Of a stretch of 64,000 bases of DNA, positions 31,881 through 56,009 are shown in pieces (position 1 is the stretch's first letter; each line of letters starts with the position of its first letter). Under the pieces are notes generated by a model, which saw nothing but the letters and a program-made list of their open reading frames with translations, had not been told where the DNA came from and made no database searches. The translations under genes and the position numbers were made by a program. This DNA comes from Phytohabitans maris (GTDB taxonomy: Bacteria > Actinomycetota > Actinomycetes > Mycobacteriales > Micromonosporaceae), in assembly GCF_031085175.1 (NCBI RefSeq), contig NZ_JAVHUY010000011.1:62001-126000 (forward strand), given 5' to 3'.

Positions 31881-31955
31881 ATGAGCGAGCGAATCATCGG
31901 GCTCAGCGCATCTGGTGGCTCGCGGCCGCCCGCAGCGAAGCGAGGACGGCCGTGA
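31881..31955 (+). CDS. Repeat-encoded mini-ORF (24 residues) coupled to the next gene
   Basis: ATG 31881 to TGA 31953-31955. The peptide starts MSERIIGLSASGG and ends [10 protein letters not shown], matching mini-ORFs at 35470-35633 and 55926-56009. Its last bases form GAGGA-CGGCC-GTGA, so its stop overlaps the GTG of the next gene by 4 bases and it carries that gene's ribosome-binding site. Whether the peptide itself has a role is unknown. Confidence 0.6.
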   Translation: MSERIIGLSASGGSRPPAAKRGRP

Positions 31956-32833
31956 GCTCACTTCTGCACGCGCTGGCGTACCGGATCCAGGAGGTCGGCG
32001 AGGAGCTGCCGGTGGGGCAGGTGGCCACGGCCGCCGACCGGTTGCGCACCGCCAATGGGCTGCTCGCCTGGGTGATGCGGGCCAGCGCGACGACCGCGCC
32101 GCCGCCCGCGCTCACCGCCGCCGGCGAACACCTCGACCACGCGGCGGGCGCACTGCTCGCCGCCCGGGAGGCGCTGGCCGGCTACCTGGTGTCGATCGGG
32201 CTGCCGCGCGACGCCGTACCCCCGCCGGACCGGGACTGGCACGCGGCGCTGGCGCCGGCCGCGGCCCGGCGACCACCCGCGAACGCCGGGCCGCCGGCCC
32301 TGACCCATTTCTGGTCCGACCGGGTCGACGAGCTGACTGAGCGATCAGGCAGCCGGCCGGAGCGGGGCGCGGAGTCCACCGTGGACCTGCTGCACCGCTG
32401 CGCCCGGACGGTCCCGGACGAGGACCGCGCCCGGCTGCGCCGGGAGTTGGCCGCGGTGGACCCGGCCGTGGGCCTGGCACTGTCCGCGGTGGCACCGGCG
32501 CCGCTGCGGTTTCTCGCCGCCGAGATGCTCGGCCACCCACCCTCCAAAGAGGACCTTTCCCGGGTACGCGAGGCGCTGCTCCCCCGGGTCCGCAAGCTGC
32601 TGCCGGCCGTGGACGACGTAGTGGTCGACGAGTTGCTCGCCCGCGCCTGCCACGCCCCGCCGCCGCAGCGCGAGGAGGGCGAGCGCACGCACCCGGTCGA
32701 CGCGGCGGTCACGGCGGCCGTCCTCGTGGGCGTCCTGCTGCGGGTCACCGGGCGGGAACCGGACGAGCTGGCCGCGGTGACCGAGGAGCTGCGCCGCGCC
32801 GGCGAGCGCGAGGAGAAGGAACGCCGTGGCTAG
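31952..32833 (+). CDS. Hypothetical helical protein of the FtsK-like module
   Basis: 293 residues, almost wholly helical and Ala/Arg/Leu-rich, with a disordered Pro-rich stretch at about 85-110. An N-terminal four-helix-like part contains LLHALAYRIQEVGEEL and ALLAAREALAGYLVSIG. The C-terminal part ends in a charged helix (EELRRAGEREEKERRG). There is no signal peptide or clear membrane segment. The GTG start comes from the repeat-derived GAGGA-CGGCC-GTG. Its 3' end overlaps the FtsK-like gene by 8 bases, so they should be made together. I do not recognise it. Confidence 0.82.
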   Translation: MSSLLHALAYRIQEVGEELPVGQVATAADRLRTANGLLAWVMRASATTAPPPALTAAGEHLDHAAGALLAAREALAGYLVSIGLPRDAVPPPDRDWHAALAPAAARRPPANAGPPALTHFWSDRVDELTERSGSRPERGAESTVDLLHRCARTVPDEDRARLRRELAAVDPAVGLALSAVAPAPLRFLAAEMLGHPPSKEDLSRVREALLPRVRKLLPAVDDVVVDELLARACHAPPPQREEGERTHPVDAAVTAAVLVGVLLRVTGREPDELAAVTEELRRAGEREEKERRG

Positions 32834-35423
32834 CGTCCGTCAAGGGGTCGTGGCCGGGGTCCGGCGAGACCTGGCCGTGGCGCGCGGGCTGACCCGGGCG
32901 GCGCTGAGCGCGGCCGAGACGGCGCGGGACGAGGCACGGCGCCACCGGGACGAGGCGCTCGCCCGGCACGGCGAGCGGCTGTCCACTCTGGCCACGGCGC
33001 GCGAGGCGGCCCGGAACGAGATCCGCGCGCGCTTCGACCAGACCGCGGGCGCCGTCGTCGAGGACCTGGCCGCCGTGGCCGCCTCCTGCGCACCCGGTGC
33101 GGCCGGCGCGTCCTGGCGGACGTGGCGCCCCACCGAGCCGGAACGGGGAAGGCGCCCCGGCCTCTTCCGGATCGGTACGCTCGGGCAGGAGCCGGCCGCG
33201 GCCACGATCCCGGCTCTGGTACCGCTGCTCGACCACGCCCACCTCTCGTTCACCGGCGATCCGTCCACAGTGGATGGCGTGATCGCCGGCCTGCTCCTGC
33301 GGGTGCTCGGCAGCACGCGCCCCGGCGAGGTACGGCTCACGGTCTACGACCCGGAGCAGCTCGGCGGCAGCCTCGCCGGCTTCGCGCCGCTGGGCAACGC
33401 CGACCTGCTCACGTTCGTCGGGCCGGGCGGGCTGACCGCGATGCTCGACGACCTGGTGGAGCAGATCCGGCGGATCAACGAGAGCGTGCTCGCCGGCGAG
33501 TACGCGTCGCTGGCCGAGCTGACCGCCGCCACCGCCGCCCGCCGCCCCGAGCCGTGGCGGCTCGTGGTGCTGCTCGGCGACGCGGCCACCGCCGCCGACC
33601 TGACCGCCGGCCAGCGTGCGCAGCTCGACCGGATCGTGCGCACGGGCGTGGCCTGCGGCGTACACGTGCTCGCCCGCGGCCTGCCGATCGAGACGCATCC
33701 CACCGTGGAGCGCGTCGCCGTGTCCGGGGGCACCGCCGCCTGCGGCGCCACCGGGGTCCTGCCGGTCCGCCTCGACCCGCCGCCGGCCGCCGACCGGGTC
33801 GCTGCCGCCTGCCGGGAGCTGGCCGAGCTGCTGCTGGCCGGGCCGCCGGCGGCGCGCTTCGCCGACCTGGCCCCGGAGAAGCTCTGGACCGAGTGCTCGG
33901 CCACCGGGCTGGCCGCCCCGCTCGGCGACGGCCCGGACGGCGAGTTCGTCGAGGTGCTGCTCGGCGACGACCCGCCGCACGCCCTCATCGGGGGCCCCTC
34001 CGGCTCCGGCAAGACCAACCTGATCTACGCCTGGCTGGGCGCGCTGACCGCCCGGTACTCCCCCGACGAGCTGGCCCTCTACCTGCTGGACTTCAAGGAG
34101 GGGGTGTCGTTCGCGCGGTTCGCGCCGGGGCGGCGGGACCCGAGCTGGCTGCCCCAGGTGCGGCTGGTCGGCGTCAACGTCAACGGCGACCGCGAGTTCG
34201 GGCTGGCGCTGCTGCGCCACCTCGGCGAGGAGCTGCGCCGCCGGGCGCACGCCGCCAAGCGCCACGAGGCCACCAAGCTCGCCGAACTGCGCGCCGAGGA
34301 CCCGAGCGGCCACTGGCCCCGGATCGTGGCGGTGATCGACGAGTTTCAGGTGCTGCTGGCCGGCCGCGACGCGATGGCCACCGAGGCGGTCGGCCTGCTG
34401 GAGGACCTGGCCCGGCGCGGCCGCTCGCAGGGCATCCACCTGGTGCTCGCCTCGCAGGACGTCTCCGGCATCGAGGCGCTGTGGGGGCGGTCGGCGCTGG
34501 TCGCCCAGTTTACGCTCCGGATCGCGCTGCCCAAGGCCCGCCGCATCCTGGCCGACACCAACCTCGCCGCCGATGTGATCCCCCGCTTTCACGCGGTCGT
34601 CAACGCCGACTCCGGGGTGCCCGACGCCAACCGCATCGTGCGCCTCCCCGACGCCAGCGACCGCGGCGCTTGGCGGGCGCTCCAGGAGAAGCTGTGGCAC
34701 GCCCGCCCCGAGGGCCTTGAGCCGCCCCGCCTCTTCGACGGCGACGCGGTCCCGTCGTACCCCGAGGAGCTGTCCGCGGACGGCGCGGTGCTCGGCGAGA
34801 CCATCGACGTACAGCCGCGGCCCGCGGTCGTCCGGCTCGCCCGCGCGCCCGGGCGCAACCTCGCCGTACTGGGCACCCGGGTCGAGGAGGCCTGCGCGGT
34901 CCTGGGCGCCGCCGGCCGCTCACTGGCCACAGTGGACGACGATGCGCGGTTCAGCGTGGTGTGCCTGGACGACGACGCCTCCCCGGCGGCCGGCCTGCTG
35001 CACGCCGCCCTGCCCGGCGCCGGCTGGTACGACGACGCCGGCGCCGCCGCCGAACTCCTCGCGCAGCTGGCCGACACTCCCACCGGGCCGCCGCACTACG
35101 TCATCGGGTACGCGTGGGACGCCGCCGCCGGCCGCCTTCCGGCGCTGCGCGAGCTCCTGGCCCGTGGGCCGGAACGGCACGTGCACGTGCTCGGCTGGTG
35201 GCGCGGCGTCACCCGGCTCCGCGACGACCTCGGCGGGGTGGGCGCCCGCTTCGACGCGGTCGGCGCGTGGGTGGCGCTGGACGTACACGGGTCGGAGCTC
35301 TCGCCGCTCTCCCCCCAGCCGGGCGGGCCGTCCTGGTACCCCCGCCCGCACCGCGCGCTCTTCTTCGACCGGGCGGTCCACCGCGCACCGGAGGTCATCA
35401 TCCCGTACGAGGTGGGCAGATGA
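32826..35423 (+). CDS. Coiled-coil FtsK/SpoIIIE (HerA)-like ATPase
   Basis: 865 residues. About 1-90 is a charged coiled coil (AAETARDEARRHRDEALARH). Next comes a region with two beta-rich parts (about 115-330), then an FtsK/SpoIIIE motor domain with Walker A GGPSGSGKTN (about 388-397) and Walker B IVAVIDEFQ (about 500-508). Then come SQGIHLVLASQD and a C-terminal winged part of about 250 residues. There are no membrane helices, unlike FtsK or EccC, and no gamma DNA-binding domain is evident. Such soluble motors pump DNA or protein; the substrate is unknown. GTG 32826 follows GGAG/AAGGA. Its stop overlaps a mini-ORF by 4 bases (ATGA). Confidence 0.88.
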   Translation: MASVRQGVVAGVRRDLAVARGLTRAALSAAETARDEARRHRDEALARHGERLSTLATAREAARNEIRARFDQTAGAVVEDLAAVAASCAPGAAGASWRTWRPTEPERGRRPGLFRIGTLGQEPAAATIPALVPLLDHAHLSFTGDPSTVDGVIAGLLLRVLGSTRPGEVRLTVYDPEQLGGSLAGFAPLGNADLLTFVGPGGLTAMLDDLVEQIRRINESVLAGEYASLAELTAATAARRPEPWRLVVLLGDAATAADLTAGQRAQLDRIVRTGVACGVHVLARGLPIETHPTVERVAVSGGTAACGATGVLPVRLDPPPAADRVAAACRELAELLLAGPPAARFADLAPEKLWTECSATGLAAPLGDGPDGEFVEVLLGDDPPHALIGGPSGSGKTNLIYAWLGALTARYSPDELALYLLDFKEGVSFARFAPGRRDPSWLPQVRLVGVNVNGDREFGLALLRHLGEELRRRAHAAKRHEATKLAELRAEDPSGHWPRIVAVIDEFQVLLAGRDAMATEAVGLLEDLARRGRSQGIHLVLASQDVSGIEALWGRSALVAQFTLRIALPKARRILADTNLAADVIPRFHAVVNADSGVPDANRIVRLPDASDRGAWRALQEKLWHARPEGLEPPRLFDGDAVPSYPEELSADGAVLGETIDVQPRPAVVRLARAPGRNLAVLGTRVEEACAVLGAAGRSLATVDDDARFSVVCLDDDASPAAGLLHAALPGAGWYDDAGAAAELLAQLADTPTGPPHYVIGYAWDAAAGRLPALRELLARGPERHVHVLGWWRGVTRLRDDLGGVGARFDAVGAWVALDVHGSELSPLSPQPGGPSWYPRPHRALFFDRAVHRAPEVIIPYEVGR

Positions 35424-35473
35424 GCGCGTTGGGAGCCTCGTGGCCGCCCGCAGCGAAGCGAGGACGGCCATGA
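35420..35473 (+). CDS. Truncated repeat mini-ORF (17 residues)
   Basis: ATG 35420 overlaps the FtsK-like stop (ATGA), and the TGA at 35471-35473 overlaps the next mini-ORF start. The peptide [17 protein letters not shown] is the second half of the repeat peptide. It is the first link of a three-mini-ORF chain. Confidence 0.5.
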   Translation: MSALGASWPPAAKRGRP

Positions 35474-35553
35474 GCGAGCGCAGCGAGCGAATCATCGAAC
35501 TCAGCGCGTCTGGAGCCTCATGGCCGCCCGCAGCGAAGCGAGGACGGCCATGA
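35470..35553 (+). CDS. Repeat mini-ORF 1 (27 residues)
   Basis: An 84-base frame in an 80-base repeat, so its TGA overlaps the next ATG by 4 bases. The peptide begins MSERSERIIELSASGAS and ends [15 protein letters not shown] lies five bases before the ATG. A second identical frame follows at 35550. Confidence 0.6.
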   Translation: MSERSERIIELSASGASWPPAAKRGRP

Positions 35554-35633
35554 GCGAGCGCAGCGAGCGAATCATCGAACTCAGCGCGTCTGGAGCCTCA
35601 TGGCCGCCCGCAGCGAAGCGAGGACGGCCATGA
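35550..35633 (+). CDS. Repeat mini-ORF 2 (27 residues)
   Basis: Identical peptide to mini-ORF 1. Its stop overlaps ATG 35630 of the downstream membrane protein gene (ATGA). The chain FtsK-like gene, three mini-ORFs and membrane protein is therefore linked by four consecutive 4-base overlaps. Confidence 0.6.
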   Translation: MSERSERIIELSASGASWPPAAKRGRP

Positions 35634-36322
35634 GCGAGAGCGAGTACCGGCGGCTGGTCGGAGCGCTCGCCGCGGCCGCCCGGGAGCGGGACGCGGCGCT
35701 GGCCACCGCCGAGCGCGGCTACCAGGACGGTGCCACCGAAGCGGCAGCGGCACTGGCGCGGGCGCAGGCCGCGACCGTCGAGGCCGAGCGGCGGGCCAGT
35801 GCGGCCGCCGCCGCCGTGGTCGACGTGGACCGGGAGGCGGGCCGCGTCTGGGACGAGCTGCGCCGGGCCGGAGGGCTCTGGGCGCGGCTCCGACCGGTCG
35901 GCGAGCTTCCGCTGCCCGCCCCCGTGGACGGTGTACCCGCCGAGCGGGCCGGGGCGGATGCCGTCGCCCTGATCGAGACCGCCGCGAAGCGGATCGACCA
36001 GCTGCGGCCCGGTGCGCCGCGGGCCCCGCTGCCGCGGTGGCTGCTGCCGCTGCTGCCGCCGCTCGGCGCCGCCGCCGCGACCATGACCGGGCTGGTCGCG
36101 GGCGGGCTGGTCACGCTGGCACACCTCGACTCCGAGCTGTCCTGGCCGCTGCGGCTGCTGGGCTGGGTGACGTTCCTGCTCGCCCCGTTCACCGGCCTGC
36201 CGCCGGCGGCGCTGTGGGTGGGGCGGCAGTTCGGCAGCCGTCTGGACGCCGGGGCCGCCGGGCTCATCGTGCTCGGCGGGATGGCGGCGAGCTGCGGCCT
36301 GTCGCTGCTCTTCGCCCGCTGA
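35630..36322 (+). CDS. Coiled-coil membrane protein of the FtsK-like module
   Basis: 230 residues. About 1-85 is an Ala/Glu/Arg coiled coil (SAAAAAVVDVDREAGRVWDE). A Pro-rich linker leads to three or four membrane helices (WLLPLLPPLGAAAATMTGLV, LLGWVTFLLAPFTGL, GLIVLGGMAASCGLSLLF). ATG 35630 and its GAGGA site are supplied by the 80-bp repeat; the first codons (MSES) still resemble the mini-ORF start MSER. It could anchor the soluble FtsK-like ATPase to the membrane through coiled-coil contact, which is inference from gene order. It converges with meaA 52 bases later. Confidence 0.82.
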   Translation: MSESEYRRLVGALAAAARERDAALATAERGYQDGATEAAAALARAQAATVEAERRASAAAAAVVDVDREAGRVWDELRRAGGLWARLRPVGELPLPAPVDGVPAERAGADAVALIETAAKRIDQLRPGAPRAPLPRWLLPLLPPLGAAAATMTGLVAGGLVTLAHLDSELSWPLRLLGWVTFLLAPFTGLPPAALWVGRQFGSRLDAGAAGLIVLGGMAASCGLSLLFAR

Positions 36323-54660: not shown

Positions 54661-55929
54661 TCATCGCGGGTACGCCGGGAAGGCCCGGACCAGCTCGGTG
54701 ACCTCGGCGCGCACGCCCTCCAGCACGCTCCCGCCCGCCGCCGGGTCGGTGCGCACCGCCTTGGCGATCAGCCCAGCGATCTGCCGCATCTCCGCCTCCC
54801 GCATCCCCTGCGTGGTCACGCTCGGTGTGCCTACCCGGATCCCGGAGGCGACCATCGGCTTCTGCGGGTCGTACGGGATCGCGTTCTTGTTGAGTGTGAT
54901 GGCCGCGGCGTCGCAGCGCTGCTCCGCCTCCCGCCCGGTGACGTCCAGGTCACGCAGGTCGATCAGGGCCAGGTGGGTGTCGGTGCCGCCGGAGACCGGG
55001 CGCATCCCCTCGCCGGCCAGCCCGGCGGCGAGCGCCTGGGCGTTCTTGACCACCTGTGTCGCGTACCCCTGGAACTCGGGCAGCGACGCCTCGCGGAGGG
55101 CGACCGCCTTCGCGGCGACGGCGTGCATCAGCGGCCCGCCCTGGGTGAACGGGAAGACCGCCTTGTCGATCCGCTCGGCGAGCCCGGCGCGGCACAGGAT
55201 CATGCCGCCGCGCGGGCCGCGGAGCACCTTGTGGGTGGTGAAGGTCACGACGTCGGCGTGCGGCACCGGCGACGGGATGGCCTTGCCGGCGACCAGCCCG
55301 ATGAAGTGGGCGGCGTCGACCAGCAGGTAGGCGCCGACCTCGTCGGCGATCTCCCGGAACCGGGCGAAGTCGATCAACCGGGGGTACGCCGTGGCGCCGC
55401 AGATGATCATCTTTGGGCGGTGGGCCAGGGCGAGCTCGCGCACCTCGTCGTAGTCGATCAGCTCGTCGTCCTTGCGCACGGTGTAACCGACGGTGGCGAA
55501 CCATTTGCCGGAAAAGTTCACCTTGCTGCCGTGGGTCAGGTGGCCGCCGTGCGGCAGGTCCATGGCGAGCACGGTGTCGCCGGGCTGGAGCAGCGCCGCG
55601 TACGCCGCGAGGTTGGCGCTCGCCCCGCTGTGCGGCTGGAGGTTGGCGTGCTCGGCGCCGAAGAGCTCCTTGGCCCGGGCGATGCCGATCTCCTCCGCCT
55701 TGTCGACCTCCGCGCAACCCCCGTAGTAGCGCCTCCCGGGGTAGCCCTCCGCGTACTTGTTGGTCAGCGTCGAGCCGAGCGCGGCGAGCACCGCGGGCGA
55801 GGTCAGGTTTTCGCTCGCGATGAGCTGGAGCCCGCCGCGCACCCGGTCGAGCTCGCCGAGCACCACGGCGGCGATCTCCGGGTCGGTGGCCTCGAGTGCC
55901 GCGAAGTCAGGCCCCCAAAAGTCGCTCAT
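54661..55929 (-). CDS. glyA: Serine hydroxymethyltransferase
   Basis: 422 residues. The PLP-lysine segment is [16 protein letters not shown], and [20 protein letters not shown] near the N-terminus and [13 protein letters not shown] are canonical. It interconverts serine and glycine with tetrahydrofolate, the main one-carbon source. ATG 55929 and its GAGGA site, five bases upstream, are supplied by a repeat-encoded mini-ORF whose stop overlaps this start (ATGA). Native regulation could therefore include coupling to that mini-ORF. Confidence 0.95.
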
Positions 55930-56009
55930 GCCCGTCCTCGCTTCGCTGCGGGCGGGCACGAGGCTCCCGAAGGGCTGTGCCTTCTGATTCGCTCGCTTCG
56001 CTCCCTCAT
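55926..56009 (-). CDS. Repeat-encoded mini-ORF (27 residues) coupled to glyA
   Basis: 84 bases, same length as the mini-ORFs at 35470-35633. The peptide begins [17 protein letters not shown] and ends [10 protein letters not shown], diverged from but clearly related to MSERSERIIELSASGAS. Its TGA overlaps the glyA ATG. It starts 9 bases after the PBP stop, so it could be translated from the same message. Confidence 0.6.

Follow-up and report, generated by a model that had tools for sequence, protein, structure and literature searches.

REP/RAYT repeats (repetitive extragenic palindromes and their associated tyrosine transposases) are short hairpin repeats dispersed on chromosomes. Insertion sequences of the IS200/IS605 type leave the target tetranucleotide at the left, carry the right end with them, and pair with internal guide bases. 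The closest described system is that of the mycobacterial interspersed repetitive units (MIRUs), repeats of 40-100 bp found at many loci, partly in tandem, and commonly used for typing tuberculosis strains (PMC2734929). MIRUs are apparently mobile and have start codons as insertion sites; an open reading frame (ORF) inside them is coupled at -4 nt (PMC12548453). The senX3-regX3 MIRUs are 53 and 77 bp long and, according to PMC4213456, are confined to M. leprae and the M. tuberculosis complex. Here we describe an element of similar design in Phytohabitans maris, represented by an array at 35420-35629 of a 64,000-nt stretch (the window, whose positions are used throughout) of the 9.87-Mb genome. 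The array consists of one shortened 50-bp unit followed by two identical 80-bp units. We suggest, with a probability of roughly 0.83, that the element is a non-autonomous MIRU-like mobile repeat, which inserts in sense at start codons and keeps the gene translated by means of its mini-ORF.

The element resembles MIRUs in being short, dispersed and partly tandem, in the way it lies at start codons and holds an ORF that overlaps the gene at -4 nt, and in its mobility. It differs from them in its 80-bp length and its sequence beyond a short core, in having the GCGNAGC hairpin at the left end, where it includes the start codon, together with a right stem that likewise takes in a start codon, and in its hosts, which are Phytohabitans, Actinopolymorpha, Kribbella, Nocardioides, Couchioplanes (these named hosts being non-mycobacterial) and further Actinomycetes genera.

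Position, orientation and reading frame

Every unit of the array starts with ATG and is open up to a terminal TGA, which overlaps the following ATG, and GAGGA lies 5 nt upstream of every next ATG, as the preliminary description of this DNA had stated. The four successive 4-nt overlaps, which it had traced from the stop of an FtsK-like gene to the start of the next gene, were located at 35420, 35470, 35550 and 35630, and the upstream gene does contain the corresponding domain (PF01580). The exact 80-bp tandem unit with a 27-residue frame holds for units 2 and 3 and fails for unit 1, which is 50 bp long and encodes 17 residues. Tandem Repeats Finder calls the array at 35423-35638 with a period of 80 and 97% matches; Rfam gave no match in the window at gathering cut-offs. 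Unit 1 begins with an ATGA that shares bases with the FtsK-like stop, and we regard this ATGA as the former start codon.

A search of the whole genome, proposed together with those first claims, revealed a dispersed family. There are at least 52 BLAST matches to a 107-nt query (a lower bound, 40 of 122 candidates being scored), and the exact 20-nt right end occurs 55 times, against 0 for the reversed-pattern control. All but two of these right ends (C8:192470 and C39:77811), that is 53 of 55, fall in copies with both ends sited. After removal of duplicates and of matches with E above 5e-3, the copy set comprises 71 copies from P. maris and 41 from other Phytohabitans-type genomes, grouped into 57 and 39 sites, respectively. 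The ends of L098 and L106 are not definable, which leaves 69 P. maris copies for the frame count; L098 is counted among the 57 sites with a loose left end (85 bp), and L118 is a right-end match without an element. The P. maris copies are mostly 80 or 71 bp long and form tandem arrays at 10 of the 57 sites.

The frame that begins at the right RTG (R, A or G) has the strongest codon-position signal, in sense, at 55 of 57 P. maris sites and at 37 of 39 other Phytohabitans-type sites, the remaining ones being L003, L121, L136 and L038. A coding ORF upstream stops within the left RTGA at 34 and 20 of these sites, respectively. Hence, the element sits at start codons, mostly at those that overlap a stop, and dozens of genes in the P. 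maris genome bear it there. At L095, L128, L141, L145 and window position 56009, where no stop overlaps, a TAGGCT/TAAACT-like box is seen by eye 6-8 nt upstream of the old start, which suggests leaderless starts.

The mini-ORF is open, with its TGA overlapping the next RTG, in 66 of 69 P. maris copies. The in-phase lengths are 80 (46 copies), 71 (13 copies), 50, 53, 59, 65, 74, 77 and 95 bp, and the out-of-phase ones 57, 81 and 82 bp. Open and in-phase frames are also found in all 41 of the other Phytohabitans-type copies and in 11 of 12 mini-ORFs of Actinopolymorpha alba (the exception is a half element). Of the 28 copies examined in further Actinomycetes genera, 26 have such frames, with lengths of 68, 77, 80 and 92 bp (exceptions L269, 79 bp, and L277, 69 bp). 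Neither the random orientation relative to genes nor the mostly broken frame, either of which the preliminary description had regarded as the mark of an ordinary repeat, is therefore seen in this genus.

At seemingly shared sites the 71-bp form of P. maris faces an 80-bp form in a relative (L105 against L147 and L091; L111 against L075; L014 against L038), as if the same 9-nt deletion had recurred in one lineage.

Table 1. Features of the array and its surroundings in the window
Feature	Position	Strand	Details
Unit 1, truncated	35420-35469	+	50 bp, 30 nt shorter than the others; 17-residue frame, in phase
Unit 2, full	35470-35549	+	80 bp; mini-ORF 35470-35553, 27 residues and TGA overlapping next ATG
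Unit 3, full	35550-35629	+	80 bp, same sequence as unit 2; mini-ORF 35550-35633 overlaps next gene start by ATGA
Left hairpin of last unit	35550-35572	+	RT-GA-GC-GA-GC-GNA-GC-GA-GC-GA-AY, GCGNAGC tip; based on covariation of 0-22 and 4-18; G.A pairs putative
Right hairpin of last unit	35597-35634	+	CTCATGGCCG...CGGCCATGAG; covers next start codon; GAGGA in loop
Upstream gene	32826-35423	+	FtsK/SpoIIIE domain, Pfam PF01580
Downstream gene	35630-36322	+	230 residues; no Pfam match; start codon at right end of last unit; orthologs in 4 same-genus genomes without element
Second insertion, same gene run	31881-31951	+	71-bp form preceding gene 31952-32833
Third insertion	55930-56009	-	80-bp copy preceding gene that starts at 55929

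The separate insertions at 31881 and 35420 both lie in a single stretch of three genes that overlap or closely follow one another (31952-32833, 32826-35423 and 35630-36322).

Filled and empty sites

The element-free joined flanks of 30 of the 57 P. maris sites were searched against five other genomes of the genus. An empty ortholog, with continuous flanks and a single RTGA at the start codon, was found for 25 P. maris sites, comprising 24 of the 30 queried and one neighbour; the six queried sites without a usable empty site are L011, L017, L020, L024, L025 and L096. The window site is empty in four same-genus orthologs, two of which have the upstream stop and the start overlapping in one ATGA (by eye). 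At eight sites the first bases of the left and right RTGA are unequal. The orthologs all match the left one at six of these, two of three do so at L019, and one of two at L023. These comparisons suggest that the gene originally started at the left RTGA, and on the simplest reading the right RTG/RTGA arrived with the element; possibly, the target was instead duplicated and the right base changed later. The bases 3' of the right RTGA match the orthologs at L101 and L109 and are therefore part of the gene at those sites.

The empty sites bear on the view that the repeat is a host regulatory cassette, in which hairpin, coupling and unit number tune the downstream gene, so that units are kept. The tandem arrays at 10 of 57 sites speak for it, as do two mycobacterial cases: in M. 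tuberculosis, more mRNA was found with longer repeats upstream of fpg1 (PMC2734929), and the senX3-regX3 MIRU region shows promoter activity (PMC4213456). However, the element is missing from some same-genus genomes at the 25 sites, and the exact right ends are unevenly distributed over the six genomes of the genus (55 in P. maris, then 21, 11, 5, 4 and 1). The empty orthologs and these uneven numbers fit spread better than a shared regulon, and we consider the cassette unlikely.

Hairpins and the nature of the constraint

The structure was examined in an alignment of 95 distinct 80-bp copies, from which the helices were also drawn. The left helix pairs columns 1-10 with 14-23 and the right helix columns 48-57 with 76-85, and there is a small third helix. 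Paired cells amount to 97.7%; shuffling gives 92.8%, and slid controls give 18.9-39.3%. Cells with double changes number 86, compared with 31.8 in shuffles, none of which reaches 86 in 500. The key pairs are start-codon base 0 with 22; 4 with 18, as GC or CG; 53 with 78 (Fisher 8e-19); and base 80, where the gene's start codon begins, with 51 (Fisher 1.6e-15 when each site contributes a single copy; sites common to different species are non-independent). Among 98 copies the left base forms a Watson-Crick pair with 22 in 89 and the right base with 51 in 90. In the 15 copies with unequal ends the left base pairs with 22 in all 15 and the right base with 51 in 11, while the crossed pairs occur in 2 and 0. 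Pair 0-22 recurs in the 28 copies from other genera, which are a subset of the matches to the model R1 described below (AT 14, GC 10, other 4, GT none; Fisher 1.2e-5); the right-stem test is below 0.05 in 18 of these copies, and the other 10 do not show the right stem.

Hence, two covarying hairpins, as read from the alignment, take in both RTGAs. The right stem, CTCATGGCCG with CGGCCATGAG, had been described as a 6-base stem closing on the first base of the ATG; it covers the ATG and is longer, at 10 bp. The pairing of the left helix leaves GA/GA oppositions and a GCGNAGC tip, where N is wholly free (1.98 bits). Energy folding does not predict it, and its support comes from the covariation. 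We suggest a G.A geometry for it by analogy with published GNA mini-hairpins (PMC4686876 and PMC6479982), which in DNA are known as very stable (PMC4686876).

The same columns bear on the second possibility offered by the preliminary description, which had left open whether the repeat is a reinitiation cassette or a family of very small peptides. A functional micropeptide (MSERSER...KRGR), one per copy, would agree with the frames open in 66 of 69 P. maris copies, with the GAG-CGN-AGC phase conserved between genera, and with the near kin (L257-L262 and L283-L285), which retain much of the peptide. However, several four-fold degenerate sites within the hairpins hardly vary: columns 20, 47, 56, 59, 71 and 77 are unchanged in 80-81 of the 81 sequences where the peptide would tolerate other bases, and in 80 of 81 the likewise degenerate column 50 is only G or A, either of which pairs with T/U. 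The four-fold degenerate position at the GNA loop is fully free. The middle of the element varies at all codon positions (0.76, 0.88 and 1.00 bits), and in more distant genera frame and phase are kept while the peptides diverge after MSERSER. What is conserved, judging by the aligned copies, is the structure, the Shine-Dalgarno-like stretch and the open frame, not a peptide. We therefore reject the peptide family, whose probability we regard as very low, and retain the first of the two possibilities, a reinitiation cassette spread as a repeat, on the strength of its anatomy.

Relatives, mobilisation and proposed mechanism

Outside the genus, the exact right end was found in none of 55 genomes. 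When one genome per species was scanned (84,980 species), it turned up in 64 DNA stretches, many of which show the pattern alone. The nhmmer search placed elements in Phytohabitans, Micromonospora sp. CPCC 205371, Actinopolymorpha alba, Kribbella, Nocardioides and Couchioplanes. The model R1 (E<=1e-4, 15 candidates per genome being scored) matched 26 of 296 genomes of the class, including P. maris, and 15 of 115 genera. R1 also matched, more weakly, L263 (G063) and L270 (G008) from a further genus within the same family; such matches escape the exact right-end pattern. A related element in Couchioplanes (L048) has the left end ATGTCG in place of RTGA.

Of 298 genomes of the order, 23 contain the motif GAGCGNAGCGATGAGG, which we take to be that of MIRUs and used as a search pattern; the genus f8.g39 accounts for 16 of the 23. 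This genus is taken as Mycobacterium because a RegX3 ortholog (2oqr, E 7.5e-143) follows one MIRU-type array there; what looks by eye like a sensor kinase precedes the same array, which shares the GAG-CGN-AGC core in phase. Of 36 distinct MIRU-type cores in f8.g39, 11 are bounded on both sides by RTGA at precisely the expected offset, 53 bp (8) or 77 bp (3). These hold GAG-CGN-AGC in the reading phase of the Phytohabitans element, with N taking all four bases, and the short stretch GAGCGNAGCGA is common to both repeats in the same phase. In the open-licence literature, covered at title level and in part, we recognised no account of this element or of MIRU-like elements outside mycobacteria.

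Some further MIRU-type repeats were noted by the way. In Mycobacterium-type genomes L225, L239 and L252 are apparently antisense (by eye, from flanking TCAT/TCAC). In one such genome the tandem MIRU spacings at L233, L234 and L235 are 51, 52 and 55 bp; spacings of 51 and 52 break the frame (remainder 0 and 1, not 2), and the 51-bp units end in GTGC, not RTGA.

The Phytohabitans element is similar to IS200/IS605 in that a left-flank tetranucleotide appears to stay and a similar one, probably borne by the element, is found at its right end, and in that the first base of each tetranucleotide, and only the first, pairs with an internal base. It differs in that its targets are start codons, in its open frame, and in the genomes that carry it: the Y1_Tnp domain (PF01797) was found in 0 of 6 genomes of the genus. 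Elsewhere, of 18 genomes that bear R1- or MIRU-type repeats, 5 have it and 13 do not. We reject Y1/RAYT as a general mobiliser on these absences.

Terminal inverted repeats, as expected of a miniature inverted-repeat element moved by a DDE transposase, are not seen by eye: the consensus left end is ATGAGCGAGCG, and the right end, in the inward direction, is GCTCATGCCCG. We also looked for a longer autonomous partner sharing this left end and rejected it: of 40 left ends in the P. maris genome 37 lie in known copies, and the other three (L253, L254 and L255) are a diverged copy or remnants. L253 is a diverged full copy. L254 (base 3019) is a remnant whose left half is fused in frame to a gene, and L255 (base 3036) is one with a degenerate right half, a kept frame and an in-phase GTGA overlap at its end.

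The least credible view is that of ordinary REP/BIME-like palindromes (BIME, bacterial interspersed mosaic element) or plain slippage repeats unrelated to translation: the element is short, palindromic, dispersed and at times tandem, like REP/RAYT repeats, but its sense orientation at the start codon at 55 of 57 sites, its kept frame and the lack of a Y1/RAYT-type domain in the six genus genomes set it apart, and a randomly placed REP-like repeat is rejected for this genus.

For the start-codon repeat that we prefer, the following course may be proposed. The element would insert directly 3' of an RTGA at a gene start, in sense, and often at an RTGA in which the gene upstream also ends. An open frame within the element, usually of 27 codons, would then begin at the old start codon, while the element would supply a Shine-Dalgarno-like GAGGA, a hairpin over the new RTG, and a TGA overlapping that RTG. 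A ribosome coming from the old start would read the mini-ORF, open the hairpin, stop at the TGA and restart at the new RTG, so that the gene would stay translated. The tiny frame thus probably hands the ribosome on to the interrupted gene, so that insertion does little harm. We infer, besides this translation and restart, that the element is transposed as a unit by an enzyme and that the right RTG is borne by it.

Several observations weigh against this proposal. The frame is broken in three P. maris copies (L115, L116 and the first copy of L021), and the downstream genes look intact. The in-phase 71-bp class, 13 of the 23 P. maris copies that are not 80 bp long, could arise by 9-nt slippage, and it is therefore not counted as evidence for selection of the frame; neither is the doubtful copy L103 (95 bp). 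The structure was derived from the sequences used to test it, and the copies are related, so that the other genera weigh more; five pairs show double changes, a number matched by 99 of 500 shuffles, and the left base is associated also with base 51 (Fisher 9.7e-6). No transposase and no autonomous partner were found in these searches. As for the kinship with MIRUs, only 11 of the 36 MIRU-type cores have both RTGA ends, 19 have RTGA at neither expected offset, and no f8.g39 genome is among the 26 matched by R1. The kinship thus rests on the short core and the anatomy, and since R1 has no match in f8.g39 genomes we call the element MIRU-like and not a MIRU.

We tentatively consider a wider idea, which at present seems to us more doubtful than likely: that a single actinobacterial class of mobile DNA, guided by structure and reading start codons, comprises these elements and perhaps also the MIRUs. 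The left target RTGA would close a single-strand hairpin with G.A pairs and a GCGNAGC tip, where T22 or C22 would select ATGA or GTGA. The right RTGA would be matched likewise by base 51, following an IS200/IS605-like logic without a Y1 transposase and with a frame that keeps translation going. The overall association of the left base with base 51 and the incomplete ends of most MIRU cores weaken this idea.

Last, a family of MIRU design in other actinomycetes, with its empty sites, intact tandems and covarying ends, makes several questions testable: which enzyme moves such elements, whether a target base is read by pairing, and whether the elements survive in operons by passing ribosomes on. 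It also carries a warning for annotation, as some actinobacterial start regions of the MSERSER... type, and the start codons with them, derive from a mobile element.

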